Of a stretch of 47,928 bases of DNA, positions 4,501-40,766 are shown one piece after another; the first letter of the stretch is position 1; every line of letters begins with the position of its first letter. The notes beneath the pieces are model-generated. The model was not told where the DNA came from. It saw nothing but the letters and a program-made list of their open reading frames with translations, and searched no databases. The position numbers were made by a program, and so were the translations under genes. This DNA is from Pararcticibacter amylolyticus. Lineage in GTDB: Bacteria > Bacteroidota > Bacteroidia > Sphingobacteriales > Sphingobacteriaceae. Location of the stretch: the NCBI RefSeq assembly GCF_003130405.1, contig NZ_QEAS01000006.1:1-47928 (forward strand). Direction: 5' to 3'.

Positions 4501-5626
4501 TGGACTACCCGCAAAGGCTGAAAATGAATATATCTCAGTGGCGATCACGAATACAGGTACGGAGATTCCTGAGGATAAAAAGGAGGCAATATTCGAGTCT
4601 TTTAACCGCCTCTCTGCGGACAAACCGGATTTTGAAAAGAGTACCGGGCTGGGACTGGCCATTGTCAGGGAACTGGTTAGTCATCTGGAAGGTAAGGTCA
4701 CCCTCCATTCCGGTGATTCGAAAGTTACGTTCACGGTAGTTTTACCATTTCCCGTAAATGTCGCAAAAACCGAAAATAACGTAGCATCGTACGATTATAC
4801 TATTTCTGAAATTGACAATATCCTCGCGGAATCGAAGGAAATGAATCTGCTGGACAAAAGAAGACGTAAAGCGAACAGCATCGTGGTGATTGAGGATGAC
4901 CCCAGCCTTCGGGCCTATATGGAGCAGCGGCTATCTGAGCACTATAATATCTATACAGCCTCTAATGGAAATGAAGGTATCGCTAAAACGGAGAAAATAT
5001 TCCCCCAGGTGGTCATTACCGACTTAATGATGCCGGAAGCTGACGGCTTTGATGTTTGCCGGCGACTGCGCTCAAATATTAAAACGAGCCATATTCCGAT
5101 AGTTGTGCTATCAGCAATGGGTAAGGAAACAGAAAATAAGATCAAGGCGCTGGAGAGCGGGGCGAATGTTTTTATCGACAAGCCTTTTAATATGGATTTT
5201 CTGCTCAAACAGGTGGACAACCTCATCAAAACCCAGAACGAGCTAAAAGAGTCATACAGCAAGAAATATATTGCGGAGCCTTCCAAAATTACTATTTCTT
5301 CTACTGACGAGGATCTGCTGAAAAGGGCGATGGAACACGTTGAGAAAAACATCAGCAATATTAACTACGATGTTGAATCGTTCGTGTCTGATATGGGCAT
5401 TGGGCGCACCCTTTTATACCAAAAGATAAACGATATACTCGGCATGTCGATAAAAGAATTCATCATCGATGTACGACTGAAACGCGGGGCCCAGCTCCTC
5501 CAGGAATCAGAACTTACTGTATCCGAAATCTCCTACGAGACCGGGTTTAATAATCCAAAATACTTCAGTATCTGCTTTAAAAAACAATTTGGTTTAACTC
5601 CTACTGAGTTTAGGAAAAAGTCTTAA
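1571..5626 (+). CDS. Hybrid two-component system (HTCS) sensor-regulator of the PUL
   Basis: This 1351-residue one-protein signalling system senses a glycan fragment in the periplasm and switches on PUL transcription. The order seen is: signal peptide (1-19); beta-propeller repeats with IWFSG, IWVAT, VWIGT and LWIGTEGGG motifs (to about 690); Y_Y_Y domain (about 700-770); one transmembrane helix (775-796); histidine kinase with phospho-acceptor H832 in NISHDLKTPL; ATPase domain with STGLGLAI at 1024; receiver domain with phospho-acceptor D1151 and K1204; and an AraC-type DNA-binding domain (about 1255-1350). All key residues are present, so it should be active. It lies directly upstream of three operons that share one operator type, which are its probable targets. 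Its own promoter is not evident and carries no copy of that operator. Confidence 0.96.
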   Translation: MRFILFVLLFISYAGLCPAINIPDYRFHKMPETSYYGGIHSITKDSIGRIWFSGYDALFMYNGNSFIQMNDLVTSHSPGVYWAYGQVITDKSKRLYVATNQGLMRFNYQTQKFQRVLTGNIAMVIPGEDGLIWLVRDGKVESFHPGQLPDVTHYPPLTNISALVSTRKHVYIAAGRKVYRIHSKTGKYTLFSDLGDNPYVIKDVLEHKGSVYILTQMNGLLECSSEGKIVRHFNLSSFYGKTANAKSLYLDSSNIIWVATQSGLFLLDPLTKETRLLRSNLHYAYSLPNNSVWSVYPDPDGGVWIGTYGGKLAYLTFFDNDVNYFKPTLGGLNHPIVSCFEEDAQGNLWIGTEGGGLNYWNRKNDHFSYYTQENKTGITSNMIKNLHYDKETNILHVSTFNGGIEQFDSRQQRFIDLHLSHPANSQLLSVYDFAMEGDSGIWMTNPDAELIYKDKKKGTAEVVSFFDPKGNRVRMRIETLFRDKGEKLWLMTHTGLYVVDVRSRRIVKHYYMPNVPYSVNSLCSYYITSGSDIWLGTRGGGVNRLGKDGSYVNFGEKEGLLGKTVFGILEDSGSKDVWFSTNDGLYYYEHAKKKIKKFPIDVSSLCGTFYVRSCFKTSKGEMLFGGTNGFILFSPGKIRQNNQKPKVFFTDLLINNKKIVPGNGDSPLTQDISTLSYPAGNNHNKIVLSHRQANIEIRVSANSYLQADKNQYAYRMLGLSDKWYTLPKGQKSVQFFNLPAGKYIFEIKAANNDGLWGDYISTLYFEIQPSPFFSVWAYIIYSILILCIVYFIWRYFTNKKIFRHQLEMEQIKEQNMKKLTQARINFFTNISHDLKTPLTLVIDPLKQLKELLPEKNSSNANAYVNLIEKNVNRIQRMISQLLQFREIESQKITINEQLGDLIQYLGDIFSLFELYANKKGIETSINSDMESFYTKFDHDVIEKIFTNLFSNAIKYTTENGFAGVKISRSAQEELLQLGLPAKAENEYISVAITNTGTEIPEDKKEAIFESFNRLSADKPDFEKSTGLGLAIVRELVSHLEGKVTLHSGDSKVTFTVVLPFPVNVAKTENNVASYDYTISEIDNILAESKEMNLLDKRRRKANSIVVIEDDPSLRAYMEQRLSEHYNIYTASNGNEGIAKTEKIFPQVVITDLMMPEADGFDVCRRLRSNIKTSHIPIVVLSAMGKETENKIKALESGANVFIDKPFNMDFLLKQVDNLIKTQNELKESYSKKYIAEPSKITISSTDEDLLKRAMEHVEKNISNINYDVESFVSDMGIGRTLLYQKINDILGMSIKEFIIDVRLKRGAQLLQESELTVSEISYETGFNNPKYFSICFKKQFGLTPTEFRKKS

Positions 5627-5659: not shown

Positions 5660-5725
5660 GTACAAAATAGAACCATTTCCGTACAAACGGATACCACTGT
5701 GCAGCTCCATGCTCTCCTACTTTTG
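5660..5725 (+). promoter_or_regulatory. HTCS-type operator and promoter of operon A
   Basis: Two direct half-sites fit GTACAAAnnnnnACCA, at 5660-5675 and 5681-5696, exactly 21 bp (two helical turns) apart. A -7 box TACTTTTG lies at 5718-5725, 37 bp after the start of the second half-site. The same layout recurs before operons B and C. Tandem direct repeats upstream of the -33 region are what an AraC-type dimer would bind. A leader of about 230 nt separates the promoter from susC. Confidence 0.8.
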
Positions 5726-5808
5726 TACAGGCCAAAGCGATATCAACACTTTGGCCTGCCAATAATAAAGCTATAAAACAAACACATCTCTTTTAACTAA
5801 ATGAATGT

Positions 5809-5871
5809 ATGATGAAAAAGAAATCTAACTATCAGATCAGAATGCCTATTGAAAGAAAGCGGCCAGATTAA
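5809..5871 (+). other. Short open frame in the susC leader (20 codons)
   Basis: Within the 330-bp gene-free stretch 5627-5956, ATG 5809 to TAA 5871 encodes 20 residues starting MMKKK and containing MPIERK. The matching leader of operon B also has an ATGAAAAG start followed, in another frame, by LPIEK. The relation suggests either a small leader peptide or a remnant of an older SusC N-terminus. The rest of the stretch holds the operator and -7 box, plus a weak hairpin after the HTCS stop (GGCGT/ACGCC, 5631-5644). Confidence 0.3.
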
Positions 5872-5956
5872 AAGCAATGATCTTCGCCATTCTCAAATGG
5901 AACGAAGGATCAAAGTGTTCTTGGTTTAACATTAACCGTACGTAAATCTAAATTAC

Positions 5957-8900
5957 ATGATAAAAGAAATACACATAAAGCTGAAAGGCTTCTTCATGGC
6001 TATTGTCTTGCTCCTTCTGTCGGCAAGTCAGATCTATCCGCAACAGGATATTAAAATCAAAGGAAAAGTGACCGATGAAAAAGGGGAAGCCCTGATTGGA
6101 GTGACGGTTCGGGTAAAAGGGAAAACAACGGGAACGGCAACGGACCCGGCAGGCAATTACACCATACAAGCTTCTCCGTCTTCCACACTGGTCTTTTCAT
6201 ATGTAGGCTTTAACGCCCGGGAAGTGAAAGTAAATCCTTCCGGAGTGATGAACATCACCATGACAGGTGATAAAGTACTCGAGGAAGTGGTCGTCATCGG
6301 GTATGGTACTGCGAAAAAGAAGGACCTGACGGGAGGCCTGGCAGTAGTTGGCAAAGAGCAACTTAGCATGGCGTCCACCCCTAACTTAATGGACCGTTTG
6401 GTCGGACAGGTTGCGGGATTCACCATTACCACTTCCAATGCCGCTCCCGGAACAGACCAGAGTCTCCTGATCCGCGGAGAAAATTCATTGTCGGCCACCA
6501 ATGCTCCTCTGATTATTTTAGACGGAATTCCATACAGCGGGTCACTGAACGATCTGGACCCGAACATTATTGATAACCTCAGCGTGCTGAAAGATGCTTC
6601 GGCTGTGGCAATCTACGGATCGCGCGGCTCGAACGGGGTCATCCTTATACAGACCAAACGAGGAATGAAGGGAAAACCGCAGGTCTCTTACAAAGGCCAG
6701 TTTGGAGTAGCTGAGCCCATGCAGCGGATCCAGGTGATGGGACCGAATGAATATATACGTTTACAACAGGACATAGGCCGGTTGAAAGAAGGGCTTTCCG
6801 GCGATCAGCTCGACCCTATTGCGGGAAACATCATCAGTGTCAGTGAACGTGAAAATTATGCAAAGGGAATTACACATGACTGGCAGGATTATATCTTCCG
6901 CAGAGCACTTACCCTGGATCATCAGGCAACTATCGCCGGAGGAACGGAGGCAACCAAATACCTTGCCGCTGTTTCTTCCCTCAGCCAGGAAGGCGTGGTT
7001 TATAACTCCAAACTATCCCGTACAATTATCTCAGCCAATATCGACCAGACATTCAGCAAATGGCTGACTACCGGGATCGGGACCCAATTCTCGCAGAGAG
7101 AAGACGGCGGGATCACTCCGAATATCGAGCACGCCATCAAACAGAGCCCGTATGGGAAGTATAAGGACGAATTTGGCAAATATGTTCCGGAACCGATGGA
7201 ATACTCTCTGATAGCTAACCCGATGCGAAATGTCGATGCAGTTCAGGACAGGACGAACCGGAACTTCTTCCTCAGCGCCTATGCGAATATCCAACTGCCT
7301 GTAAAAGGTCTTTCTTTCAGATCTAATTACGGTTATAACTACCGGAGTAATTTTACTGGCACCTATTATGGACGCAATACATTTGATGGTAAAATAGTGA
7401 GCGGGAAAGCCAGTATTAACAATGGACATTACAATGATTACAACTGGGAGAACATATTGAAGTATGACCGGGAGATTGGCAACCACCGCATCGACGCAAC
7501 CGGCTTGTTCAGTATGCAGCAAACTAAAGAAATCAGCGCTTCTCAGGGGGGAGAAGGCTTCGTAACAGATGATACTGAGTATCATATGATACATGGAGCA
7601 GCCCGGGTTTTAACCCCAAGTTCAAATTTGACCGAAACAGCGATGTTATCTTATATGCTCCGGGTCAACTATGCTTATAAGGGGAAATATATGGCTACCA
7701 TAACCGGCCGTACAGACGGAGCATCCGTCTTTGGCAAAAATAACAAATATGCTTTTTTCCCTTCGGCGGCTCTTGCATGGCACATTGGGGAAGAGGGTTT
7801 TATAAAGAACAACCTGGGCTGGGTGAACATGCTTAAATTGAGAGCTTCCTACGGAGCTAACGGGAACCAGGCCATCACCTCATACAGGACACTAGACCGT
7901 CTTTATTCGACCATTAAATATATATGGGGAGATGGCGGTACTGCTGTCAATACAGCCTACCTGCCAGGTGACGGCGTGGGCAATCCAAACCTGAAATGGG
8001 AAACTACCTATACGACTAACGTTGCTCTGGACTTTTCATTGTTCAGGAATCGTTTGAGCGGAAGCGTAGATGCTTACCTTTCTAATACAAAGGATTTGCT
8101 GATGATACGTACCGTACCGGTGATGAATGGCTACAACCGGATTTGGGATAACATAGGCCAAACCCGTAACAAAGGTATTGAAGTTGCTTTAAATACGGTG
8201 AACATGGATAAGCGGGATCTGCGCTGGACCTCCAGTGTTAATTTTTTCCTGAACCGTGATAAGATCGTTGATCTCAGGGGTGACAAAATAGATGACATTA
8301 ATAACAACTGGTTTATAGGTAAACCACTGAGGGTGTTTTATGATTATTATATGGTAGGCATCTGGAAACAAGGAGACGAATTCCAATATACAGACGCCGA
8401 TGGCAACAAAAGGGATATTCAAACAGGCGCGGTTCCGGGATCGGCAAAGGTAGAAGATGTAGACGGCAATGGCTATATTAATGAAAAAGACCGGAAAGTT
8501 ATCGGGTCCAGAAGGCCAAGTTTCACTGCATCCATAGGCAACAGGCTTACCTACAAAAATTTCTATTTTTCATGTCTCGTAAACGGAGTATTTGGCACCT
8601 GGAGCGAGGATAACCTGGCCAATATAGGTTCGTGGACATTCGGAATTACCAATTACGTGCATGGTGCAAACTATTGGACTCCGGAAAATCAGAATGCTGA
8701 TATCGTTTCTCCCGGCTATAATAACAATCTGGGGCACGGCTATTACAAACAGGTTTCGTATGTACAGGTTAAGAATATTACGCTTGGTCACAGGTTTGGT
8801 CAAAAAACCGCTGGCAAAGTTGGCTTCAGCGCCATCGACCTGAACCTGAGCGTCAACAACCTGCACACTTTTTCTAACACAAGACAGGTTCTCAACTACG

Positions 8901-8968
8901 ACAACGGCTGGATGGCCTCTTATCCAACTGCCCGTTCCTACATGCTGGGACTAAACTTAACTTTCTAA
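5957..8968 (+). CDS. SusC-like TonB-dependent outer-membrane glycan transporter (operon A)
   Basis: The 1003-residue SusC-family receptor imports oligosaccharides across the outer membrane using TonB energy, as a complex with its SusD lid. It has a signal peptide (about 1-29, ending QIYPQ), a carboxypeptidase-D-like domain (about 32-110, KGKVTDEKGEALIGV), a TonB-box-like EEVVVIGYGTAKK segment, and a plug with VLKDASAVAIYGSRG from residue 210. A 22-strand barrel follows, ending in an aromatic C-terminus (LNLTF). There is no STN domain, fitting control by the HTCS and not by an anti-sigma factor. An internal ATG at codon 14 could be the true start, but the longer form keeps a plausible basic n-region. 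It is the first gene of operon A, with susD starting 11 bases after its stop. Confidence 0.95.
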   Translation: MIKEIHIKLKGFFMAIVLLLLSASQIYPQQDIKIKGKVTDEKGEALIGVTVRVKGKTTGTATDPAGNYTIQASPSSTLVFSYVGFNAREVKVNPSGVMNITMTGDKVLEEVVVIGYGTAKKKDLTGGLAVVGKEQLSMASTPNLMDRLVGQVAGFTITTSNAAPGTDQSLLIRGENSLSATNAPLIILDGIPYSGSLNDLDPNIIDNLSVLKDASAVAIYGSRGSNGVILIQTKRGMKGKPQVSYKGQFGVAEPMQRIQVMGPNEYIRLQQDIGRLKEGLSGDQLDPIAGNIISVSERENYAKGITHDWQDYIFRRALTLDHQATIAGGTEATKYLAAVSSLSQEGVVYNSKLSRTIISANIDQTFSKWLTTGIGTQFSQREDGGITPNIEHAIKQSPYGKYKDEFGKYVPEPMEYSLIANPMRNVDAVQDRTNRNFFLSAYANIQLPVKGLSFRSNYGYNYRSNFTGTYYGRNTFDGKIVSGKASINNGHYNDYNWENILKYDREIGNHRIDATGLFSMQQTKEISASQGGEGFVTDDTEYHMIHGAARVLTPSSNLTETAMLSYMLRVNYAYKGKYMATITGRTDGASVFGKNNKYAFFPSAALAWHIGEEGFIKNNLGWVNMLKLRASYGANGNQAITSYRTLDRLYSTIKYIWGDGGTAVNTAYLPGDGVGNPNLKWETTYTTNVALDFSLFRNRLSGSVDAYLSNTKDLLMIRTVPVMNGYNRIWDNIGQTRNKGIEVALNTVNMDKRDLRWTSSVNFFLNRDKIVDLRGDKIDDINNNWFIGKPLRVFYDYYMVGIWKQGDEFQYTDADGNKRDIQTGAVPGSAKVEDVDGNGYINEKDRKVIGSRRPSFTASIGNRLTYKNFYFSCLVNGVFGTWSEDNLANIGSWTFGITNYVHGANYWTPENQNADIVSPGYNNNLGHGYYKQVSYVQVKNITLGHRFGQKTAGKVGFSAIDLNLSVNNLHTFSNTRQVLNYDNGWMASYPTARSYMLGLNLTF

Positions 8969-8979
8969 ATCAATACGAT

Positions 8980-10632
8980 ATGAAAATGAAGAAATTACTA
9001 CAAACCGGCCTGGGGATTATACTCCTGATCTCTGTCAGCGGGTGTGAAAGTTTCCTGGAAGAAGATCTGAAATCAGCACTGGCACCAACAAACACTTTTA
9101 CCAGCACCTATGGCTTCGAGGTAGGTACTGCAGGTCTTTACGCCCTTACACGTTCAGAATATAATACCTTTGGTGAGGGAGGGGCATATATTCATAATGG
9201 GGCCTGCCCTTACGAAGCGCTACAGGCTGCAACCGATATTGCAGACGTCATAAACAGCGACGCGTCACTGCTCCCGTTTGCAAATCTGACCCTGAACTCG
9301 CAGGAAAGATTTGTAGGCTCTTACTGGAACTGGGCGTATAGCCTGATTGCTTCGGCAAATGAAATACTGGTTTTCTCTGAGCAAAATACGAATTGGGATA
9401 ACCCGGCAGATAAGCAGCGCTTTCAGGCGGAGGCGCGGTTCTTCCGTGCTTACGCATATCGTACACTGGTTTATCTCTTTGGAGATGTTCCTTATGTAGA
9501 AACAATATTATATGATTTCCAGCTCAATTTCACCCGCACTCCGAAAGCCGAGGTAGTGGGTCATATTGTGGACGACCTGAAATTTGCATCTGAATATCTT
9601 CCCGCCAATCCGGACCAGGTTCAGGATGGGAAGCTGACCAGATGGGCGGCCTATCATTTATTAAGTGAGATGTACCTGATGCAGAAAGAATATGCGCCGG
9701 CAGAACAAGCGGCACTGGCCGTTATTAACAGCGGGTATTACGGGCTGATGAAAACACGGTTTGGCGTAAACAAGGACAAGCCGGGCGATGTATTCAGCGA
9801 TATGTTCCTGGAGAATAATCAAAACAGGAAGAGTGGCAACAGGGAGAGTATATTTGTTCTGCAGTTTCAATTCAATACAGTCGGAGGGGGTACAAATTCT
9901 GACGACTGGACCCGCAGGGCATGGAATCCCAAATACCAGGATATATCCGGTTTTGTTCTGGCTGATACACTGGGAGGCCGCGGTCTGGCTCAATTAACAC
10001 CGATGAAATGGTGGGTTGGCACAAACGGCACCAACGCCTCCGGGAACGTAGCAGGTATCTTCGGCGCCACCGATATCCGTAACTCCAACTATAATATCAA
10101 ACGAAACTGGTATTACAACAACTCAGGTGACCCGTCTTTATATGGAAAGAAGGCTAATATAACAGAGCAGACCTGGTTTTCAACCAAGACCCTGTTCCCG
10201 GCAATAACCAAATTCTTTTATGGGCGCCCGGAGAACCTGAGTCTTACCGGAAGTTATAAAGACCGCATGAAATTCCGTCTGGCAGAAACCTACCTGCTGC
10301 TGGCAGAGGCTTACCTGGGGCAGAATAATCCGGCCAGGGCAGCAGACGCAGTAAATGAAGTCAGAAACAGATCCGGAGCAGCAGCCATAACTGCCGGTCA
10401 AATGTCTATGGACTTCCTGCTCGACGAGCGGATCCGAGAACTGGTAGGCGAAGAAAGCCGTCGTTTCACCCTGATACGTACCGGAAAACTGGTGGACCGG
10501 GTGAAAACATACAATACAGCTATAAAAGACAAAATTCAGGATTATCATACGTTGTGGCCTATTCCGCAAGCTATAATAGATGCCAATCGTGATGCAGAAT
10601 TTCCTCAGAATCCGGGCTACAGCAATAAATAG
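8980..10632 (+). CDS. SusD/RagB-like surface glycan-binding lipoprotein (operon A)
   Basis: The 550-residue lipoprotein has its lipobox cysteine at C22 (VSGC), followed by acidic residues that fit surface export. The SusD hallmarks are the ESFLEEDLKS start of the mature protein, TPR-like helices with RFFRAYAYRTLVYLFGDVPYVE, the LAETYLLLAEAYLGQNNPARA block, and a C-terminus with LWPIPQ and NPGY. It caps the SusC barrel and captures the glycan at the cell surface. It follows susC by 11 bases. Confidence 0.95.
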   Translation: MKMKKLLQTGLGIILLISVSGCESFLEEDLKSALAPTNTFTSTYGFEVGTAGLYALTRSEYNTFGEGGAYIHNGACPYEALQAATDIADVINSDASLLPFANLTLNSQERFVGSYWNWAYSLIASANEILVFSEQNTNWDNPADKQRFQAEARFFRAYAYRTLVYLFGDVPYVETILYDFQLNFTRTPKAEVVGHIVDDLKFASEYLPANPDQVQDGKLTRWAAYHLLSEMYLMQKEYAPAEQAALAVINSGYYGLMKTRFGVNKDKPGDVFSDMFLENNQNRKSGNRESIFVLQFQFNTVGGGTNSDDWTRRAWNPKYQDISGFVLADTLGGRGLAQLTPMKWWVGTNGTNASGNVAGIFGATDIRNSNYNIKRNWYYNNSGDPSLYGKKANITEQTWFSTKTLFPAITKFFYGRPENLSLTGSYKDRMKFRLAETYLLLAEAYLGQNNPARAADAVNEVRNRSGAAAITAGQMSMDFLLDERIRELVGEESRRFTLIRTGKLVDRVKTYNTAIKDKIQDYHTLWPIPQAIIDANRDAEFPQNPGYSNK

Positions 10633-10692
10633 AAATATTCCACATTTAATTGCCGGAAGAGGGGAATAACGACTTAACAAAGAAACAACGTT

Positions 10693-11883
10693 ATGAAAAA
10701 AATTAAATTTCTATATAAAATATTTCCATTGTTGTTCTCTGTGGTTTTACTGACCGCGTGTGAACAGGACGTCATGGACATTAAAAAGGTACAGGAACGG
10801 CTGGAACTGAAGGCATCAGCCGAAAGCATTACCCTGAGTGAAGAACATCTTACCGACGACATTGTGACATTCACATGGACGGAGGCGAGGCAGGTTTCCG
10901 ATGATCACCTGGTTTCTTATACGACTAAGCTGGATATCGTAGGGAATAATTTCGGATCCTCTACAGCTATTATGAACTATGAGGATGAGGGAGTTCTGAG
11001 CAGAAGTTTCACATCTGAACAATTGCAGAACTGGGCAAATGAAAAGTGGGGCGTTCCTGTTAACAAACCCTTTACACTGGAATTCCGGGTTGTAGCTCAA
11101 TGGGAAGGGGGAGCCACCTTTGAAGCGCCAGAAGTACGCACCGTACGGGTTAACGTGCAGCCTATCAAAACGGTGGTCTTTGATGCGGACAAAGTGTTCC
11201 TGGATGGCACTGCCGTTCCGGGTATGAGCCCTGTTGAGATGAGCAAAACAGTTGAAAATCCTAACCAATATGCATCCCTGGTTAACCTGGAGGCCGGTGA
11301 CTTGCAAATCCCTGTTGAATTTCAGGGTGCAACCAATTATATCTTTGCAGCGGATGGCAATCAACAGTTGCAGGACGGAGCAACAGGCATAAAAATGCGG
11401 GAAACTGCTTTCGCCTGGAAGATAGAAACGCCTGGACAATACCGGATCGTTGTCAATATGCAAAAAGCAACAGTTGCCATCTATTCGCCTGAAACAGATC
11501 TTAAGCCTGCTGTTGTGGAATGGCCTCTTTCGGGAGTGACACAAACTACTACGGTGAACAACCTCTGGGAGTATGGAGAACCGACAGGCTGGGCCTGGCG
11601 GACAGGCAACTGGAAACAGAGTCTGGCCGATCCGCAGGTATTCATCTATTCCGGGCCGGCACTTAGTGGAAGAACCAAATTTGGAGTACAGCCCAACAAC
11701 CAAACTTATGTATACACCGGTAACAACACCGCTACCAATACTCCTGTTACGCTGGGAACGGTTTATAACCTGTTCAGCGGTTACACGACCAATGAGCGTA
11801 ACGCATACTTCAGTATTCCGGCGGGGACTAACTTCATCATCCTCGATATAAGAAATATGACAATGGTAGCAAGCAAAAAATAA
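10693..11883 (+). CDS. SusE-like outer-membrane glycan-binding lipoprotein
   Basis: The 396-residue lipoprotein has cysteine C23 (LLTAC). The N-terminal part (ASAESITLSEEHLTDDIVTFTWTEA) is the SusE-type immunoglobulin-like domain. The rest forms beta-rich modules similar to the starch-binding modules of SusE and SusF, with a repeated pattern of aromatic residues (WEYGEPTGWAWRTGNWKQ). No catalytic motif is seen. It sits after susD with a 60-bp gap, the usual place for a surface glycan-binding protein, which helps hold the polymer close to the SusCD pair. The exact ligand cannot be read from the sequence. Confidence 0.85.
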   Translation: MKKIKFLYKIFPLLFSVVLLTACEQDVMDIKKVQERLELKASAESITLSEEHLTDDIVTFTWTEARQVSDDHLVSYTTKLDIVGNNFGSSTAIMNYEDEGVLSRSFTSEQLQNWANEKWGVPVNKPFTLEFRVVAQWEGGATFEAPEVRTVRVNVQPIKTVVFDADKVFLDGTAVPGMSPVEMSKTVENPNQYASLVNLEAGDLQIPVEFQGATNYIFAADGNQQLQDGATGIKMRETAFAWKIETPGQYRIVVNMQKATVAIYSPETDLKPAVVEWPLSGVTQTTTVNNLWEYGEPTGWAWRTGNWKQSLADPQVFIYSGPALSGRTKFGVQPNNQTYVYTGNNTATNTPVTLGTVYNLFSGYTTNERNAYFSIPAGTNFIILDIRNMTMVASKK

Positions 11884-11897
11884 CCAGTATGTGTCAG

Positions 11898-11960
11898 GAA
11901 GTATTGCTGCATTCAAATGAATGATGACCTCAGGGGATAAGAGAGATACAGCAATATTTC
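11898..11960 (+). other. Intergenic RNA hairpin between susE-like and DUF4832-like genes
   Basis: GAAGTATTGCTG (11898-11909) pairs with CAGCAATATTTC (11949-11960) over 12 bp with one G-U pair. Inside the loop lies a second small hairpin (CATTC/GAATG). There is no T-run, so it is not a classic terminator. It may set relative expression or mRNA stability across the 101-bp gap inside operon A. Confidence 0.4.
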
Positions 11961-11984
11961 TGATGCGCATTAAACGTTAACGAA

Positions 11985-13553
11985 ATGAGAAAATTGAATT
12001 ATAAAACAATGATCATACCCACACTGATGGCATTTCTATGCCTTCAATTATTTGCCTGTTCCTCAAAAGATAATACTGGTGAAGCAGAGAAACCAAAAGA
12101 AGGAACCTTAGTAAAGCCCAAATACAACAGGAATTCGGTAATCCGAAATCCTTTAAACGGCTGGGTGATGTATGCCGCGCGCGATGCCAATGAATCATAC
12201 TGGGACAAGGAGATCTATGTGGCAGACTTAGGCAAAAGAGTAAAGGTCATTGATTATGCTTCGGCCTGCTATCTTCGTACCAGCTGGTCATCTCTAAATC
12301 CCAGCGATGGTGTATATACCTGGAGAGATCCTAATACACAGATTGGCAGATTAATTAAAGGAGCAAAGGACAGGGGCTTGCCAATAGGTCTTCGTATAGT
12401 AGTGGACGGACGGGATCAGGGCATGAATACACCTAAGTTTGTATTTGACGCCGGGGCTAAATCTTACCTTGAGAACAGCAATTATCCGACCCGGATAACT
12501 CCTATACCACAAGATCCTGTTTTTCAGCAATACTATGCCAAATTTATCGAAGAGCTGGCGAAGGATTTCAATGATCCCGCACGCACTTCATTTATCGACG
12601 CATATGGTTTGGGCAAATGGGGTGAAGCTCACAATGTAGTATATGAGGATCCAAATACTTCTACGGGCCAAAATACCGAAAGGCTTAAAGAAGAGGTTTT
12701 TGACTGGATTACGGATCTATATTCCCGGACCTTTACCAAAGTACCTCTGGTGATCAATTACCATCGGGTGATCGGAGATCCGGTAAGCTGGGGTTCTGCA
12801 AATCCAAACAGCGACAGGCTGCTGGTTAAAGCTATTAATAAAGGATATAGCCTGAGACAGGATGCCTTTGGAATGAACGGCTATTATGGAAGTTGGGAAA
12901 AGCAATTTGCGAATAACTGGATTTTTAAGCGCCCTATCATTATGGAAGGAGGCTGGATCATCAGTTCCCATAGTTATTGGACAGATCCAAGCGGTAAATA
13001 CAGGCAGGGACATCCTGAAGACGTACGTCAGGGAGAGTTTGATGCGTCGGCGGAAGCCCATGTGAATATGATGGACTTTCGTGCGGGATCAGAGACAGTC
13101 TCCTGGTTCGAAAATAGTTTTACTTTGGTTCAGCGCTTTATTTCTGAGGGGGGGTACCGCCTATACCCAGACCGGATCTACTTACCGGAAAAAATTAAAA
13201 GCGGAGCCGAAACAACCCTAAGCCATCGCTGGAGAAATATGGGCTGGGGATACTTCCCTAACAACATCCCTCAATGGAATTATAGGTATAAAGTTGCCTT
13301 CGCACTTCTTGACGCGCAGAATAATGTGAAGAAGGTTTTTGTAGATAAAGATAGCGAGCCTTCCACCTGGCTGAAGGACACTCCTGTATCTTACGATTTC
13401 AAAACTACAGTAGATCTACCTGCGGGGGCTTATTCATGGGCTGTAGCGATTGTAGATACATCGAAAGACAACCAGCCGGCTATAAAGCTGGCCGTTAACG
13501 GGGATATTACTAATGACGGCTGGGTAAAACTGCTGGATTTACAAGTTCAATAA
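11985..13553 (+). CDS. DUF4832-like lipoprotein, candidate surface glycoside hydrolase
   Basis: This 522-residue protein has a lipobox cysteine at C25 (LFAC) followed by SSKDN, a mature start that fits export to the cell surface. The first ~400 residues read like a TIM barrel: NPLNGWVMY, then YLRTSWSSLNPSDGVYTW, GLPIGLRIVVDG, and GLGKWGE with E214 where clan GH-A enzymes carry the acid/base. VPLVINYHR follows, then IMEGGW with E321 where the nucleophile would sit. The last ~120 residues (YLPEKIKSGAETTLSHRWRNMGWG) resemble the DUF4832 beta-domain. It is the last gene of operon A, before a strong terminator. A lipoprotein in this slot is often the endo-acting enzyme or the surface binding protein. 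The catalytic assignment is inferred. Confidence 0.7.
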   Translation: MRKLNYKTMIIPTLMAFLCLQLFACSSKDNTGEAEKPKEGTLVKPKYNRNSVIRNPLNGWVMYAARDANESYWDKEIYVADLGKRVKVIDYASACYLRTSWSSLNPSDGVYTWRDPNTQIGRLIKGAKDRGLPIGLRIVVDGRDQGMNTPKFVFDAGAKSYLENSNYPTRITPIPQDPVFQQYYAKFIEELAKDFNDPARTSFIDAYGLGKWGEAHNVVYEDPNTSTGQNTERLKEEVFDWITDLYSRTFTKVPLVINYHRVIGDPVSWGSANPNSDRLLVKAINKGYSLRQDAFGMNGYYGSWEKQFANNWIFKRPIIMEGGWIISSHSYWTDPSGKYRQGHPEDVRQGEFDASAEAHVNMMDFRAGSETVSWFENSFTLVQRFISEGGYRLYPDRIYLPEKIKSGAETTLSHRWRNMGWGYFPNNIPQWNYRYKVAFALLDAQNNVKKVFVDKDSEPSTWLKDTPVSYDFKTTVDLPAGAYSWAVAIVDTSKDNQPAIKLAVNGDITNDGWVKLLDLQVQ

Positions 13554-13567
13554 AGTAAACATTTTCA

Positions 13568-13609
13568 CCCCTTGTAACCGTTGCTGTTTCCAGGATTGGT
13601 TACAAGGGG
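13568..13609 (+). terminator. Terminator hairpin ending operon A
   Basis: A perfect 12-bp inverted repeat, CCCCTTGTAACC (13568-13579) with GGTTACAAGGGG (13598-13609) and an 18-nt loop, lies 15 bp after the stop of the DUF4832-like gene. It has no clear T-run. Confidence 0.65.
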
Positions 13610-13721
13610 CTTATAGAACGGCTATCCCGAATGGTCGTAAGCAGAAGAAACCATACTTGTCATCTCAATTCTGATTAAAAACTGACCGAATAATTTACCT
13701 ATCACCCGTATAACCTGCTTC

Positions 13722-13785
13722 GTACAAAAACAAACCATTTCCGTACAAAAGTGAACCCTTCCGATAGTACGTACATATAGTTTTG
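13722..13785 (+). promoter_or_regulatory. HTCS-type operator and promoter of operon B
   Basis: The half-sites are GTACAAAAACAAACCA (13722-13737) and GTACAAAAGTGAACCC (13743-13758), 21 bp apart. The -7 box TAGTTTTG lies at 13778-13785, 35 bp after the second half-site start. The last base of the second half-site differs from the other copies. The leader to susC is long, about 570 nt. Confidence 0.78.
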
Positions 13786-13997
13786 TCATAACCCAACGAT
13801 GGTTTTCGGCGATGAAGCTATTTTATTACTTCCCTTGACTGTAAGTACCAGATAATGAAAAGAAGTTTAACCATAAAATCCACTTGCCTATAGAAAAGAC
13901 CGCCAACTTAACAACCGTTTATCTTCATTATTCAATATAGTAATGACGGTAGAAAATGAATACTTCTAAAAACTCAACCAACATTAAACTAAATTAT

Positions 13998-14092
13998 ATG
14001 ACAAAGCAATACTCCTCAAGCTGAAGTTTATTACTGTTTACTGCTCCACTTCCGCTGGCAGCTACACTCCGTTTTCCCTAAAAATGCTATAA
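13998..14092 (+). pseudogene. Vestigial susC start in the operon B leader
   Basis: The leader bases before this point (CTAAATTAtATGA) match those before the operon A susC start (CTAAATTAcATGA). The codons that follow read MTKQYS and, after a one-base shift, LKLKFITV, next to MIKEIHIKLKGFF in the intact gene. The frame stops at once or at 14092. This looks like the broken first codons of a duplicated susC. The functional susC of operon B begins only at 14357 with a different signal peptide. Confidence 0.4.
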
Positions 14093-14356
14093 AAGTAACA
14101 GAGAATACTGAAGGCCTATACTCTCCGGCTGATGACACAATGTAGCCACGGGCAAAGATGAGTAGTAGTTCCGAGACAGAGATCGATTCATTCAGCCATA
14201 CAATTATAGTATAAACAAACCAAGATATGCCGGAAACATAACGGGCATAAAGCAGGCGATATTTCAGCCCTGTTGAATAAGCCGTGCCGTTTTGACTTAT
14301 CTGAAGCAATCCCGGCTTCTATAATAAGTTAACGTGAAATATTAACCAATTACACA

Positions 14357-17300
14357 ATGAGACATAAAACTTCCCTAGTGAAAATTATGAAAATATCTTT
14401 TTTACAGATAATCACATTCTGGGTCATTTCAGGGAGCTGTTTAGCAACAGAAAGCAGCGCCAGCCCATTTTTTGATAAAAACACGCGTATTAATGAGCCG
14501 CGGTCAGCAATGCCTTTAATTAGCTTGAACGATTTATTGGAAGCACAGGTTTCCGGAAAGATAACCGATGAACGCGGAGAGCCCCTTCCCGGAGTAACTG
14601 TTTACATTAAAGGCACAAGCAAGGGCGCAGTCTCTGATGCCGGAGGTAATTACCGGATTGTTGTGCCTGTCGGCAATGAAGTTCTGGTTTTTAAATTCGT
14701 AGGATATAAAAACCAGGAAATACCTGTCGAGACCCGAAGGCTGATCAATGTTTCCATGGAACCTGACGCAACAAGCTTAAACGAGGTTGCTGTGGTGGCA
14801 TTTGGGACGCAAAAAAAAGAAAGCGTAGTTGCTTCCATTTCTACAGTTAACGTACGGGATGTGAAACAAGCTGCCCCCCGTTCTTTGACCAATGCACTTG
14901 CAGGAAAGGTCTCCGGACTAATTTCTGTTCAGCGAAGCGGTGAGCCGGGATACGACGATGCACAGTTCTGGATCAGGGGCATCAGCACATTCGGCGCAGG
15001 AGCAAATCCCCTGGTGCTAGTTGACGGAGTGGAACGTCCTATTGCAAACATTGAGCCGGAAGAGATCGAAACCTTCTCGGTATTGAAAGATGCAGCCGCT
15101 ACTTCTGTGTATGGTGTAAGAGGCGCCAACGGGGTTATCCTCGTGACAACCAGAAGAGGTTTGCGGCAGAAGCCCGGCATCAGTTTTAAAATGGAAAGCG
15201 GAACGAACAGACCCACCCGGTTACAGGAGTACGTGGATGGTCCTACCTGGCTGAATTTATACAATGAAGCACAATTGGCCACGAATCCTAACTTTGTTTC
15301 GCCCTACACACCTGAAATAATAGCAAAATATGGAAGCGGCGAAGACCCTTATCTTTATCCAAATGTTGACTGGCTTGATCTCATGATGAAAGATCACGCT
15401 TCGAATCAAAGAGCCAACCTGAACATAACCGGGGGCAGCGAGATGGCTAAGTATTTCGTTTCCGCAGGGTATTATCAGGAAGATGGCATATGGAAGGGGG
15501 ATAACCTGAACACATATAATACCAATGCAAAAGTAAAACGTTATAATTTCCGTGCTAATATCGATGTGAATCTGAACAAAGACACCGAACTTAGCCTCGG
15601 CTTAGGAGGAATTCTGGTTACATCTAATTATCCGGGCACCGGTAACGGGGATATCTGGTCGGCTATTCAAAATAATACGCCAATCGGCTATTCGCCAACA
15701 TATCCTGATCCAGCAAGTCCCGGAAAAATCTTATACGGAGGCATCACCAGTTTGATCAATCCATATGCTCAATTGACGGGTACTGGCTTCAAAACTCAAT
15801 GGCGTAATAACATACAGTCTGACCTTACCTTAAAACATGACCTTTCCAGGTTTGTGAAAGGCTTGAACATACAGGGAAAATTCGCTTTCGATGGCTATAA
15901 TTATCATGATATTAATCAAACCAGAACCTACCTGACCAACAGCGGCGAGGTGGATAAGTATTTTGCTACGGGACGGGATGAAAACGGAGACCTGATATTA
16001 AGCAGACTGGTGACAGGTAAAGCAGATCTCGGTTTTGGAAAGACCTCTGGCGGTAACAGGCGCATTTATATCCAGGCAAACATTGATTACAACAGAAGTT
16101 TTGGGAAACATAGTGTAAAAGGCTTATTGCTCTACAACCAGCAGGACTACCAGAACGCCGATGCTACTGACGCCATTAGCTCATTGCCATTCCGGCTTCA
16201 GGGCTTGGTTTCCCGGCTGTCTTACGGCTACGACAACCGTTACTTTATAGAAGTAAGCGCCGGCTATAACGGTTCAGAAAATTTTGCAAAAGGACACCGA
16301 TATGGCTTTTTTCCGGCAACAGCTATAGGATGGATACTCTCTGAGGAGTCGTTCTTCAAAAACACTATCAAAGGCATTGAGTACCTGAAGTTGAGAGGGT
16401 CATGGGGAATCAAAGGAAACGATCAGATCGGAGGCCGGAGATTTGCCTACCTGACAACAGTAGCCGGGGGAAATGGAGGCTATACATTCGGTATTGATGC
16501 AAATAATGGTTTTACCGGCCGTGGGGAAGATCAATGGGGGGCAAATCTGACATGGGAAAAAGAAAGAGAAACCGATTTGGGCATAGAAATGAGATTTTTG
16601 AGAGGCTTCAACCTGCAGGCTGACGTGTTCAAACGCCACCGGGAGGGTATATTCCTGCAACGCGCTTCGTTACCTACTATGCTGGGCTTACAAAACAACC
16701 CATACGGAAACCTTGGGGAGTTTGAAAATAAAGGGTTCGAAACTACTCTCGAGTACAGGGCAAGAATGGGAAATCTTGATATCTCCTTCAGAGGCAATTA
16801 TACATTCGCCAAGAATAAATTGTTGAATACTGATCAGCCGGACTATACGTACACGTACCAAAACCGCGTTGGGAAAAGATATAATCAACCCTTCGGCCTG
16901 GTCGCTTTAGGCTTGTTTAATGATCAGGCCGAGATTGATAATTCACCGGTTCAACAATTCGGAGCGGTACGACCGGGAGACATCAAATACCTGGATTACA
17001 ACAATGATGGTGTGGTCAATTCGTTCGATGCTATAGCAATAGGCAATCCTGCAGTACCTCAGGCGATCTATGGCTTTGGAAGCACCATCGCGTATAAGGG
17101 CTTTGATGTCTCTGTATTCTTTCAGGGCAACGGAGCCGCCAGCTTTACGCTTGGCGGTTCGGGATGGTATCCCTTTGCGCAAGGGGGCCTGATCGGCAAT
17201 GTGAATATCAACACTTTGGACAGGTGGACACCTGAAGATCCCAGACAAGATGCCCTTTTTCCAAGGCTTTCATTTGGCACCAACTCCAATAATTTTCAGA

Positions 17301-17542
17301 GTTCCACATGGTGGCAACGCGACGGCAGCTACTTAAGACTGAAAACTGCTGAAATAGGTTATACTATTCCTAAATCTCTGACAAAAAAGCTAAAAATCAA
17401 CACTCTCAGAGTTTATGCGAACGGGTTGAACCTGCACACCTGGAGCAAATTCGATTTCTGGGATCCTGAACTGGGTAGTGCCAACGGAGGAGCTTACCCT
17501 ATCCAGAAGACATTCAATTTTGGGATCAACCTGAATTTATAA
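14357..17542 (+). CDS. SusC-like TonB-dependent outer-membrane glycan transporter (operon B)
   Basis: This 1061-residue SusC homologue has a signal sequence (about 1-31, hydrophobic core ISFLQIITFWVISGSCLA), then an unusual extra ~35-residue segment before the carboxypeptidase-D-like domain (VSGKITDERGEPLPGVTVYIKG, from about residue 65). The TonB-box region is NEVAVVAFGTQKKE, and the plug contains VLKDAAATSVYGVRG from residue 242. The C-terminus is FGINLNL. There is no STN domain. It is clearly divergent from the operon A SusC, so it probably takes up a different fragment of the same polysaccharide. The partner susD starts 34 bases downstream. Confidence 0.94.
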   Translation: MRHKTSLVKIMKISFLQIITFWVISGSCLATESSASPFFDKNTRINEPRSAMPLISLNDLLEAQVSGKITDERGEPLPGVTVYIKGTSKGAVSDAGGNYRIVVPVGNEVLVFKFVGYKNQEIPVETRRLINVSMEPDATSLNEVAVVAFGTQKKESVVASISTVNVRDVKQAAPRSLTNALAGKVSGLISVQRSGEPGYDDAQFWIRGISTFGAGANPLVLVDGVERPIANIEPEEIETFSVLKDAAATSVYGVRGANGVILVTTRRGLRQKPGISFKMESGTNRPTRLQEYVDGPTWLNLYNEAQLATNPNFVSPYTPEIIAKYGSGEDPYLYPNVDWLDLMMKDHASNQRANLNITGGSEMAKYFVSAGYYQEDGIWKGDNLNTYNTNAKVKRYNFRANIDVNLNKDTELSLGLGGILVTSNYPGTGNGDIWSAIQNNTPIGYSPTYPDPASPGKILYGGITSLINPYAQLTGTGFKTQWRNNIQSDLTLKHDLSRFVKGLNIQGKFAFDGYNYHDINQTRTYLTNSGEVDKYFATGRDENGDLILSRLVTGKADLGFGKTSGGNRRIYIQANIDYNRSFGKHSVKGLLLYNQQDYQNADATDAISSLPFRLQGLVSRLSYGYDNRYFIEVSAGYNGSENFAKGHRYGFFPATAIGWILSEESFFKNTIKGIEYLKLRGSWGIKGNDQIGGRRFAYLTTVAGGNGGYTFGIDANNGFTGRGEDQWGANLTWEKERETDLGIEMRFLRGFNLQADVFKRHREGIFLQRASLPTMLGLQNNPYGNLGEFENKGFETTLEYRARMGNLDISFRGNYTFAKNKLLNTDQPDYTYTYQNRVGKRYNQPFGLVALGLFNDQAEIDNSPVQQFGAVRPGDIKYLDYNNDGVVNSFDAIAIGNPAVPQAIYGFGSTIAYKGFDVSVFFQGNGAASFTLGGSGWYPFAQGGLIGNVNINTLDRWTPEDPRQDALFPRLSFGTNSNNFQSSTWWQRDGSYLRLKTAEIGYTIPKSLTKKLKINTLRVYANGLNLHTWSKFDFWDPELGSANGGAYPIQKTFNFGINLNL

Positions 17543-17576
17543 TAAGCTGCGCTTAAACGAACTAAATGTAAGCTAA

Positions 17577-19403
17577 ATGAGAAAAATCATGACAAATAAA
17601 ACTTCAAAATATATCCTTCTGCTCATATGCAGCATGAGTCTGCTGTCCTGTGAAAAATTCCTGGATAAACAACCTAATGATATGCTGAATCTTGATCAGG
17701 TATTCTCTATCAGACTGGAAACTGAAAGATACCTTGCCAATGTTTACAGCTACATCCCTGATCCGCTGGTGTGCAATGGTGTTAACTATACTCCTCTCTC
17801 AGATGAAGCGGATTGGGTATTTAACTGGCCTCACCAACAGATTAATACCGGCAATTGGTCACCCGTCAATACCCCTTACGATATTTGGTCCAAATACTAT
17901 AAAGGTATAAGAGCTGCAAGCACTTTTATTAACAGGGTGAGCGAATGCAAGGAATGTGATGAGCTCAATCCTGGTATTACTGTACAATACCGGGAAGAAG
18001 CACGGGTACTCAGGGCATTTTATTATTTCCTGTTAATCCGGCAATATGGCCCCGTAACCATCTTGCCGGATGTGCCTTTAGCTATTGACGCACCATTGTC
18101 TGAAATGCAGTTACCCAGAAACTCGTATGACGAATGCGTTGATTTCATTGTTTCGGAACTTGACAAGGCGCAGCAGGTATTGCCAGACAAACAGTCAAAT
18201 ACAAGGGAATACGGCCGGACTTCAGCAGGAATGGCAAGAGCATTAAAAGCAAGGGTTTTACTATATGCCGCCAGTCCCCTATGGAATGGAAATACGGACT
18301 ATGCTGATTTCAAAAATAAAGACGGGAAGCAACTCGTTAACCAGGTATATGATCAAAACAAGTGGCGTAAAGCAGCGGAAGCGGCTAAGAGCGTTATAGA
18401 CAAAATGCCTGAAGGGCTTTATAAGAAGAACGGCACTGACGGAAAGTTTGATCCATTTCTTTCTTACCAATATGTGTTCCTGGACAGGTGGAACACAGAG
18501 GTTATCTGGGCACGGCCAATGACGGGGGATGCCGTTCGTTGGGAACGATGTTCAGCTCCGCGGCAAATTAACGGCTATATCGGACTTGGTCCCAGTCAGC
18601 AATTAGTGGACGAGTATGAAATGGAAAACGGGATGAGTCCGTTTACGGCTGCGAGCACGACTGCTAACCCCGTAATCAATCCGGCTTCCGGCTATACAGA
18701 GACAGGATTTTCGACTACTGCGACCAAGTTCACGAAAGCAGGCATTCATAACATGTATGTTGGCCGTGAACCGCGCTTTTATGCGACAGTTGGATTTAAC
18801 GGCATGGACTGGGTTTATAAAGGAGCAGATGGTAAAACCATTATTCGTGTTGAGTTATTTTCTACGGGTAAAGACGGCTATAACGGATCCAACGACCATT
18901 CCACAACGGGCTACACTACGGTTAAATATGTGCACCCCGAAAGCGATGTGAGAAACGGAAGGCATGTATTGAAATCATGGATATTTTTCAGGCTGGCAGA
19001 ATTTTACCTGAACTACGCAGAAGCCCTTAACGAATATGATCCGCAAAACCCCGATATCTATAAATATATTAATTTGATTCGTGAGCGGGGGGGAATACCT
19101 TCACTTCCGGAAGGTCTTAATCAGGATCAGATACGTGAACGTATCAGACATGAACGCAGAATAGAACTTGCTTTGGAGGAACATCGTTTCTGGGATGTAA
19201 AACGGTGGAAGATTGCCGAACAAACTGATGCTGCACCGATATATGGGATGAACGTAACTACAGGCACCAGTTTCAGCGATCAGAATTTCTACAAACGAAA
19301 GATTACTGAGTCACGCACATTTCAGAAGAAACATTTTCTTTGGCCTGTGCCACAATATGAGATAGAAAGGAACACGGAACTGGTGCAGAACCCGGAATGG
19401 TAA
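17577..19403 (+). CDS. SusD/RagB-like surface glycan-binding lipoprotein (operon B)
   Basis: The 608-residue lipoprotein has cysteine C25 (SLLSC), followed by EKFLDKQPNDMLNLDQVF, the usual mature SusD start. TPR-type helices include EEARVLRAFYYFLLIRQYGPV and RLAEFYLNYAEALNEY, and the C-terminal region has RERIRHERRIELALEEHRFWDVKRWK and HFLWPVPQYEIERN. All are standard SusD signatures. It pairs with the SusC just upstream. A second ATG at codon 5 is an alternative start. Operon B contains only this SusCD pair and ends in a hairpin terminator, so it has no enzymes of its own. Confidence 0.95.
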   Translation: MRKIMTNKTSKYILLLICSMSLLSCEKFLDKQPNDMLNLDQVFSIRLETERYLANVYSYIPDPLVCNGVNYTPLSDEADWVFNWPHQQINTGNWSPVNTPYDIWSKYYKGIRAASTFINRVSECKECDELNPGITVQYREEARVLRAFYYFLLIRQYGPVTILPDVPLAIDAPLSEMQLPRNSYDECVDFIVSELDKAQQVLPDKQSNTREYGRTSAGMARALKARVLLYAASPLWNGNTDYADFKNKDGKQLVNQVYDQNKWRKAAEAAKSVIDKMPEGLYKKNGTDGKFDPFLSYQYVFLDRWNTEVIWARPMTGDAVRWERCSAPRQINGYIGLGPSQQLVDEYEMENGMSPFTAASTTANPVINPASGYTETGFSTTATKFTKAGIHNMYVGREPRFYATVGFNGMDWVYKGADGKTIIRVELFSTGKDGYNGSNDHSTTGYTTVKYVHPESDVRNGRHVLKSWIFFRLAEFYLNYAEALNEYDPQNPDIYKYINLIRERGGIPSLPEGLNQDQIRERIRHERRIELALEEHRFWDVKRWKIAEQTDAAPIYGMNVTTGTSFSDQNFYKRKITESRTFQKKHFLWPVPQYEIERNTELVQNPEW

Positions 19404-19432
19404 GCATAAATACGTTTCATGTGAAAAGGGTT

Positions 19433-19463
19433 ACCTGCTACGCCCTTTAATGGTGTAGCAGGT
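19433..19463 (+). terminator. Terminator hairpin ending operon B
   Basis: ACCTGCTAC (19433-19441) pairs with GTAGCAGGT (19455-19463). Pairing can extend inward by three more pairs (one G-U). ATTTTAG follows. Confidence 0.65.
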
Positions 19464-19501
19464 ATTTTAGGTGAAATTGACCAGTTGTTTATGTGCCGAC
19501 T

Positions 19502-19566
19502 GTACAAAATAGAACCATTTTTGTACGAACTAATACCATTATACGAACGTCCCCGGCCTACTTTTG
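19502..19566 (+). promoter_or_regulatory. HTCS-type operator and promoter of operon C
   Basis: GTACAAAATAGAACCA (19502-19517) is identical to the first half-site of operon A. GTACGAACTAATACCA (19523-19538) follows at a 21-bp spacing. The -7 box TACTTTTG (19559-19566) starts 36 bp after the second half-site. The leader is short, about 75 nt or less, unlike those of operons A and B. Confidence 0.8.
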
Positions 19567-19646
19567 CATCATGCGTAAGTACGACATCGCTTCGCAAACC
19601 ATATAATAAACTATAATAATTGCACTTCAGCCAACCAATAAGTTTA

Positions 19647-21779: not shown

Positions 21780-21787
21780 AAAGAACG

Positions 21788-23779: not shown

Positions 23780-23791
23780 GACCAGATTATC

Positions 23792-25579: not shown

Positions 25580-25598
25580 GGCTCATAAAACAGGACTT

Positions 25599-26858: not shown

Positions 26859-26879
26859 CACACACATAATCCCATATCA

Positions 26880-28079: not shown

Positions 28080-28102
28080 AGCATTTGAAGATAGAGACCG
28101 AC

Positions 28103-30835: not shown

Positions 30836-30846
30836 ACAGATAAATT

Positions 30847-31614: not shown

Positions 31615-31628
31615 ACATACATGCAATT

Positions 31629-35054: not shown

Positions 35055-35071
35055 TCTATGAAATCTGTACG

Positions 35072-36280: not shown

Positions 36281-36302
36281 GATCTATAGTTTAAAATGTG
36301 AG

Positions 36303-38666: not shown

Positions 38667-38670
38667 ATTT

Positions 38671-38686
38671 TGATTATCTATAATCA
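38671..38686. promoter_or_regulatory. Palindromic putative operator before the TonB receptor
   Basis: TGATTAT and ATAATCA form a perfect 7-2-7 palindrome, four bases from the receptor ATG. With a two-base loop it is a poor RNA hairpin and a better DNA operator. It resembles, but does not equal, the Fur-box core TGATAAT-N-ATTATCA. The regulator is unknown. Confidence 0.4.
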
Positions 38687-38790
38687 GGAACATTCTTCCC
38701 GATAACCAAGACATAGTTGCATAAGTGATCCCTCACTGCAATAGAATATGATTTTTTTTAGAATTAATTTAAATAAGGTTAAAAAGCGAC

Positions 38791-40020: not shown

Positions 40021-40021
40021 G

Positions 40022-40675: not shown

Positions 40676-40766
40676 AAAAAAGCGGGAAATGAAAATCGTT
40701 TAATGTAACAAACTTAGACAAACTTTCTTTTTTTAACAAGTTCGGTTATTCAGACCCGATCCGCTG

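Follow-up and report, generated by a model that had tools for sequence, protein, structure and literature searches.

A tandem operator with 21 bp pitch before three operons of a Pararcticibacter amylolyticus polysaccharide utilisation locus and its predicted hybrid two-component regulator

Three intergenic sites of polysaccharide utilisation locus (PUL) 1 of Pararcticibacter amylolyticus carry the same tandem element, and these are very probably the activator sites through which the adjacent upstream hybrid two-component system (HTCS) regulator is predicted to switch on operons A, B and C together. The window analysed is a stretch of 47,928 nucleotides (contig NZ_QEAS01000006.1, positions 1 to 47,928, forward strand), for which control of the three operons by a single regulator, the adjacent HTCS, had been proposed from the letters alone (the sequence-only reading). 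This proposal is supported by the co-occurrence of the motif with the HTCS DNA-binding domain in the Sphingobacteriaceae (46/46 genomes with the domain clade versus 2/353 without), by the absence of the motif from all five genomes which hold the transporter operon and lack the clade, and by the presence of an operator at 15 of 20 loci outside the family that were chosen by their regulator. The elements, their spacing, their uniqueness and their co-inheritance with the HTCS DNA-binding domain are direct observations. The operators, each located by pattern and profile search, and their promoter boxes are as follows:

5660 to 5696, plus strand: operator A, half-sites 5660-5675 and 5681-5696
5718 to 5725, plus strand: -7 box of promoter A, TACTTTTG, its first base 37 bp after that of the second half-site (5681 to 5718)
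13722 to 13758, plus strand: operator B, half-sites 13722-13737 and 13743-13758
13778 to 13785, plus strand: -7 box of promoter B, TAGTTTTG, its first base 35 bp after that of the second half-site (13743 to 13778)
19502 to 19538, plus strand: operator C, half-sites 19502-19517 and 19523-19538
19559 to 19566, plus strand: -7 box of promoter C, TACTTTTG, its first base 36 bp after that of the second half-site (19523 to 19559)

All three tandem GTACAAAnnnnnACC elements are present where the sequence-only reading placed them, with a pitch of exactly 21 bp. Its distances of 37, 35 and 36 bp to a TAnnTTTG box are also right in value, but run from the first base of the second copy, not its last, to the T of the box. 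As it had claimed, the window holds no further tandem copy: a pattern search allowing up to three mismatches returned three matches (zero, one and one mismatch), with none expected from 100 dinucleotide shuffles. A genome-wide search for the 21 bp tandem, suggested as a check, gave the same three sites only in the organism's own genome (6,314,122 bases, 153 contigs, 97.69% complete), and the reversed-pattern control gave none. A 67-position sequence profile, built from 38 sites including the three of the window, recovered the three operators in this genome at E <= 6e-11, the next match being at E 0.14; four weak partial matches (E 0.14-1.5) were not accepted as lower-stringency regulon members. 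In a 395-genome sample of the phylum, searched with stricter filters at the loss of some weak matches, the profile gave, besides the own sites, four weak partial matches (E 1.6e-4 to 7.3e-4). With no extra sites in the own genome and these four in the phylum sample, the motif was not seen to be widespread before unrelated genes.

The motif (up to two mismatches), the HTCS DNA-binding domain (query residues 1240-1351, with the best candidates, at most 11 per genome, scored after a first look) and the SusD of operon A (SusD_A; best candidates, at most three per genome) were searched for over the same 399 Sphingobacteriaceae genomes, drawn evenly from the larger family. The HTCS clade was cut at >= 139 bits, within a gap above the next match at 115 bits which had been seen before the cut was placed, and comprises 47 matches in 46 genomes. 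The motif occurs in 48 genomes at 111 sites, with two matches in the reversed-pattern control. It is present in all 46 domain-positive genomes and in two of the 353 domain-negative genomes (Fisher p about 2e-58, uncorrected for relatedness). An operator lies within 25 kb on the same contig for 46 of the 47 clade HTCS genes, while the remaining gene, a 54%-identical paralogue in genome G376, has a degenerate site (four mismatches, box at 35 bp) 38 bp past the domain.

The genes of a PUL travel together, so that any element within it would correlate with the HTCS, and the three elements could instead be the sites of some other protein, whether a different HTCS, a SusR-like regulator or a free AraC-type one, and merely be co-inherited with the locus. 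Matches to Y_Y_Y, an HTCS-type sensor module, occur at 19 places in the own genome, 18 of them besides the window HTCS, and genome G104 has sites with no clade HTCS found. Binding by another regulator is nevertheless distinctly improbable when the transporter and the regulator are considered apart. A close SusD_A orthologue (>= 957 bits, next match 545) is present in 46 of the 399 genomes, five of which (G019, G110, G145, G224 and G317) lack the HTCS clade; the motif is found in none of the five, and in the 20 kb around their SusD_A operon no operator was found, the best match having six to nine mismatches. Five of the 46 clade genomes (G061, G166, G205, G214 and G232), in turn, have no SusD_A match of at least 957 bits, and all five carry the motif. 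The motif is thus absent with SusD_A where the clade is missing and present with the clade where SusD_A is missing, and therefore tracks the regulator, not the transporter. Moreover, SusR-type regulation involves tandem sites 67 or 77 bp apart in the available part of PMC3878776, as against the 21 bp pitch of the window, and no other transcription factor was found among the 15 gene products of positions 1571-33833 scanned by Pfam.

In one clade-less genome, G019 (locus L188, G019:C35:7000-26900), the SusCDE-DUF4832 operon lies behind an extracytoplasmic function (ECF) sigma/FecR pair and encodes a SusC with an STN domain. This is a naturally occurring switch in the mode of regulation, and L188 contains no operator like those of the window. 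Control by ECF sigma, FecR and an STN-type SusC differs from the arrangement in the window, where no sigma/anti-sigma pair is found among the same 15 products and the SusC of operon A (SusC_A) has no STN match. In G110, G145, G224 and G317, the 20 kb around this operon showed no homologue of the HTCS, ECF or FecR proteins encoded in the window. Loci L184-L187, from four genomes with the SusCDE-DUF4832 operon, have in common another upstream block, CATTTGG.GAAAAAGTACCCCCTAAATG..., which may serve a different regulator as operator.

Beyond the family, the GTDB species collection was scanned with an alignment of ten HTCS DNA-binding domains, yielding 60 loci: 38 from Sphingobacteriaceae, 20 from other taxa and two weak ones that were left out (L171, E 9e-10; L172, E 4e-5). 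Dysgonomonas, Bacteroides sp., Prevotella, Parabacteroides, Paludibacter, Alistipes, Sinomicrobium and Niabella are among the titles of the 20 outside loci, and B. thetaiotaomicron is not among the 60. The operator is the best profile match in 15 of the 20 outside loci, where it lies on the same strand as the HTCS, 32-1188 bp beyond the domain, and scores +6 to +61; the next-best place in these loci scores -3 or lower, except for a second operator in L131. The three weakest of these operators (L117, L129 and L130) have more than four mismatches to the original pattern. A [TCG]AnnTTTG box stands at 35 or 36 bp in 13 of the 15, and strict TAnnTTTG in five. The 38 Sphingobacteriaceae loci are not independent, because many of their genomes are the same as in the family survey; a site lies within the 10 kb flank in 28, and 13-17 kb away in nine of the other ten, the last being L134. 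Locus L131, counted outside the family and titled Flavobacteriaceae, has operators which resemble those of Pedobacter.

The core of the motif had been predicted correctly, but the motif is longer and its spacer is not free, the consensus being GTACAAAAnnnAACCATTTyyG(t/a)ACAAA....ACC. With sites of identical context counted once for half-sites and boxes alike, 175 of 177 perfect half-sites in the window and the fetched family loci have a partner (up to two mismatches) at exactly 21 bp, none has one at another distance only and two are single; all 111 family sites lie in the fetched stretches. Among 20 perfect half-sites in the 20 outside loci, 18 have a partner (up to three mismatches) at 21 bp, one at another distance and one has none. 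Over 105 distinct sites, TAnnTTTG stands at 35 bp in 47, 36 bp in 45, 37 bp in one and 34 bp in one, so that 92/105 fall at 35 or 36 bp where about 0.11 are expected; nine of the 11 sites without an exact box show near-boxes (TATTTTTA, TAGTTTTA or TACTTTCG). The upstream copy is the more conserved, and this holds too for the 15 regulator-chosen loci with an operator, in 12 of which it is free of mismatches, compared with four for the downstream copy. GTACAAA and ACC lie about 10 bp apart, centre to centre, a distance which fits the two helix-turn-helix (HTH) units of an AraC-type domain. If the box is placed at -7, with the transcription start deduced from it, the ACC of the second half-site would fall at about -33. 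At L041:1039-1096 (G330), three successive half-site copies with 21 bp pitch precede a GH28-like gene, and the box fits the last pair.

Binding by the HTCS, activation, polymerase contact and the signal may be envisaged as follows. The periplasmic sensor of the HTCS would detect a glycan breakdown product, whereupon the receiver domain would be phosphorylated, and the phosphorylated HTCS would dimerise on the DNA via its AraC-type domains, with one monomer per half-site and the two HTH units of each monomer contacting GTACAAA and ACC, about one helical turn apart. Both monomers would lie on one face of the DNA, because the half-sites are exactly two turns (21 bp) apart. The upstream half-site would act as a strong anchor, while the weaker downstream one, starting 35-36 bp before TAnnTTTG, would end at about the -33 box position, and from there the HTCS is therefore proposed to contact RNA polymerase in the manner of AraC at araBAD. 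In this manner operon A (SusCDE and a DUF4832-like protein), operon B (a second SusCD) and operon C (eight enzyme genes) would be turned on jointly. Class II activation calls for a fixed distance between the proximal half-site and the core promoter, such as that seen in the 92 of 105 sites with a box at 35 or 36 bp. Some HTCSs repress, for example BT2391 (PMC11253607, available part), and a protein bound at a site that reaches the -33 region could also block the polymerase, so that the HTCS might act here as a repressor or dual regulator instead. Such a role is very improbable, as an activator that contacts the polymerase requires just such a near-invariant register of 35-36 bp, and as the window HTCS contains the SHIP portion of the S/CHIP-DK motif, which is reported in the same part of PMC11253607 for phosphorylation-controlled HTCSs; the comparison concerns this portion only.

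Several points weigh against activation of the three operons by the adjacent HTCS. Operator A of the window is itself the sole 37 bp site among the 105, an unusual spacing to the -7 box; the counts over 177 half-sites and 105 sites derive mostly from loci fetched for containing the tandem motif, and the co-occurrence figures for motif and HTCS ignore phylogeny. The relevance of a -33 element in the Sphingobacteriaceae is uncertain, because the TTTG element described at -33 in B. fragilis was not found in Flavobacterium johnsoniae, according to the available part of PMC7366714. When 17 stretches of the own genome near other HTCS-type genes were scanned for a tandem repeat with a box at 20 pitches from 14 to 33, pitch 21 was the commonest at the loosest threshold only (32 versus at most 22) and not at two stricter ones. 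The operator was not found in five of the 20 outside loci, of which L121 and L136 are cut off by a contig end at most about 220 bp from the HTCS domain, unlike L119, L138 and L139. Finally, of the two domain-negative genomes with the motif, G325 has one AT-rich match that lacks both the ACCATTT core and a -7 box and is probably a chance look-alike, while G104, which is 99% complete, has two convincing operators (L091 and L092), one at 138 bp from the end of its contig, and no clade HTCS was found in it, which may reflect a missing contig or loss of the regulator.

The likeness between the promoters of operons A and B extends into the leader:

13852 to 14025, plus strand: operon B leader, homologous to the operon A leader and the first 29 bases of susC_A; non-coding in B

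The A and B leaders align with a local score of 51 (maximum 33 in 300 shuffles), and the alignment of A with C spans the entire promoter region and scores 55 (maximum 30 in shuffles). The susC gene of operon B starts only at 14357, beyond the leader homology. The simplest reading of these alignments is a duplication that took in the operator, the leader and the beginning of a susC_A-like gene, with the copy now driving another SusCD pair. The leaders of several relatives align with both the A and the B leader, and a comparison of the operon B promoter and leader with plasmids gave no match. That the three elements are alike through promoter-region duplication only, with no common regulation, could be argued from these scores but is almost certainly wrong, since downstream of the -7 box the A-C score is matched by 25/300 shuffles and the B-C score by 178/300, and since conservation already speaks against duplication as the whole story: the operator is kept in outside-family loci chosen by their regulator, and selection therefore appears to maintain it.

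The shared leader block, TTTAACCATAAAAT...TGCCTATAGAAAA, lies at 5809-5985, before susC_A, and at 13852-14025, and could be a regulatory RNA element or a small-RNA target. The 12-base word of this block (up to two mismatches) occurs in 12/37 SusC_A leaders, in operon B and in 1/70 other leaders, standing 99-119 nt before the start in 11 of the SusC_A leaders and 67 nt before it in one. Derivation of the block (the TGCCTATAGAAA region) from the N-terminus of an STN-type SusC was rejected: frames through 13 leaders contain stops, and the window leaders score 12 and 17 against the 5' end of the STN-type susC of G019, where shuffle means are near 14.5.

The regulator gene and the three operons are arranged as follows:

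1571 to 5626, plus strand: HTCS regulator gene, 1351 amino acids, with Pfam matches over cut-offs to a Reg_prop propeller, Y_Y_Y, HisKA, HATPase, receiver and AraC-type HTH
5957 to 13553, plus strand: operon A, comprising SusC (5957-8968), SusD (8980-10632), SusE (10693-11883) and a DUF4832-like protein (11985-13553)
14357 to 19403, plus strand: operon B, comprising a second SusC (14357-17542) and SusD (17577-19403)
19620 to 33833, plus strand: operon C, eight genes, encoding GH36/GH97-like, GH97, GH2, CE15-like (Pfam GCE_fung), GH88/105, GH2, GH35 (C-terminal domains only) and GH3 proteins

The HTCS with an AraC-type DNA-binding domain that had been placed directly upstream proves complete by Pfam, its stop codon lying 34 bp before the start of operator A, and the contents earlier assigned to the operons (SusC/SusD/SusE with a DUF4832-like protein, a second SusC/SusD, and enzymes) are correct. 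The Pfam match of the DUF4832-like protein is below the cut-off, and the SusC proteins of operons B and A are 26% identical. Judging by the sequence, the first start codon of operon C is more likely the ATG at 19647 than the TTG at 19620. The CE15-like, GH88/105 and GH2 genes of this operon, and no other evidence, hint at plant polysaccharides of a pectic kind or with glucuronic acid as candidate substrates. An open reading frame of 255 amino acids at 30847-31614 comprises the C-terminal all-beta and galactose-binding domains of a beta-galactosidase, with no catalytic domain found; it looks like a kept gene and not a fragment, because many relatives have homologues (56-64% identity) that are mostly of similar length. 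Beyond operon C, the region 33885-43402 contains a minus-strand ECF sigma gene (40767-41306) ahead of minus-strand genes including a TonB receptor, with a tRNA-Glu gene (41438-41512, minus strand) beside it, and an ECF sigma/FecR pair (41545-43402, plus strand) precedes an STN-type SusC outside PUL 1.

As a finder of unlinked regulon members, a use which the sequence-only reading had foreseen, the motif yields candidates in some relatives, while neither pattern nor profile found such members in the own genome. The first genes after operators in relatives encode SusC_A-type, SusC_B-type, GH36-like, GH97, GH2, GH105 and DUF4832-type proteins, with 12 unclassified, and some operators are followed by a GH28-like first gene (two scanned, one above the Pfam cut-off). 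Eleven of the 111 family sites have no clade HTCS within 40 kb on their contig, and contig breaks may explain some of these. Six sites, five of them HTCS-distant (that of G104 included) and one 28 kb away in G289, precede homologous proteins of 710-730 amino acids, 57-64% identical to the protein of L094, a right-handed beta-helix protein sorted by the type IX secretion system; a search of the own genome, made without a positive control, gave no match to it. Other sites precede homologues of the DUF4832-like protein of about 660 amino acids (67% for that of L095, which has a fascin-like C-terminus), from eight loci homologous to each other. At L097:9267-9303 (G109:C5), a convincing operator with a -7 box stands before RHS-repeat genes (1041 and 1233 amino acids), the clade HTCS being on another contig.

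Similar operators have been described in Bacteroides. The available part of Ravcheev et al. (2013; PMC3878776) describes HTCS motifs as direct repeats of 21 bp on average, presumably bound by a dimer on one face of the DNA and first assigned by neighbourhood and footprinting. It gives HTCS_Man sites as two 16 bp sites with a 5 bp spacer, and reports that one HTCS can control several operons, including distant ones. These Bacteroides operators (PMC3878776; RegPrecise) likewise belong to regulators with an AraC-type C-terminus, have direct repeats of about 21 bp and lie upstream of susCD and enzyme operons, whereas the present comparison set the motif against its regulator in 399 genomes and included a measurement of the promoter register. 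Literature searches returned nothing relevant to the motif string in Bacteroid- among the matches listed, and nothing for HTCS with Pedobacter or hybrid two-component with Sphingobacteriaceae; PMC12125979, which in its available part concerns Vibrio XylR, was set aside, and the available part of PMC10994844 gives no promoter spacing. The direct-repeat architecture of HTCS operators was thus already known, and what sequence comparison may add is the GTACAAA-type motif (set beside the 2013 motifs by description only, not by logos), the assignment of the regulator across genomes, the promoter register and the cases of regulator change. The hallmarks of an HTCS regulon were found, namely sensor-to-HTH domains in a single protein, an operator of direct repeats of about 21 bp, its position before susCD and enzyme operons near the HTCS, and its conservation with orthologous regulators.

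The arrangement also resembles the araI1-araI2 half-sites of araBAD in E. coli, which have a 21 bp pitch and overlap the -35 region. AraC binds araI1 more strongly, and araI2 recruits RNA polymerase (PMC4760080, available part), a preference paralleled here by the stronger conservation of the distal half-site. AraC differs in being a cytoplasmic sugar-binding activator with a looping distal site and a sigma70 promoter, while the promoters here are of the Bacteroidota -33/-7 type.

A 37 bp probe, with 46/46 agreement, allows regulator and site to be cross-checked in hundreds of genomes, and the outcome is a defined, predicted regulon of three operons together with a list of unlinked candidate targets in relatives. 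The HTCS-operator pair is a ready candidate for studies of binding and structure, HTCS activation at Bacteroidota promoters becomes directly testable through the fixed distance to the -7 box, and natural cases are at hand in which the same transporter operon has changed its regulator. A wider interpretation, for and against which the balance is even, is that across several Bacteroidota orders the HTCS DNA-binding domain has remained coupled to one rigid operator, with a pitch of 21 bp, a -7 box at 35/36 bp, a strong distal half-site and a weak proximal one, while the cargo under their control was re-wired. The SusCDE-DUF4832 operon would then have come to lie behind ECF sigma/FecR in one genome or another system in four, operon B would have joined by copying of operator and leader, and relatives would have recruited unlinked genes by placing the operator before them. 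HTCS operators may in that case be portable cassettes, and their geometry a class II activation rule at Bacteroidota promoters.

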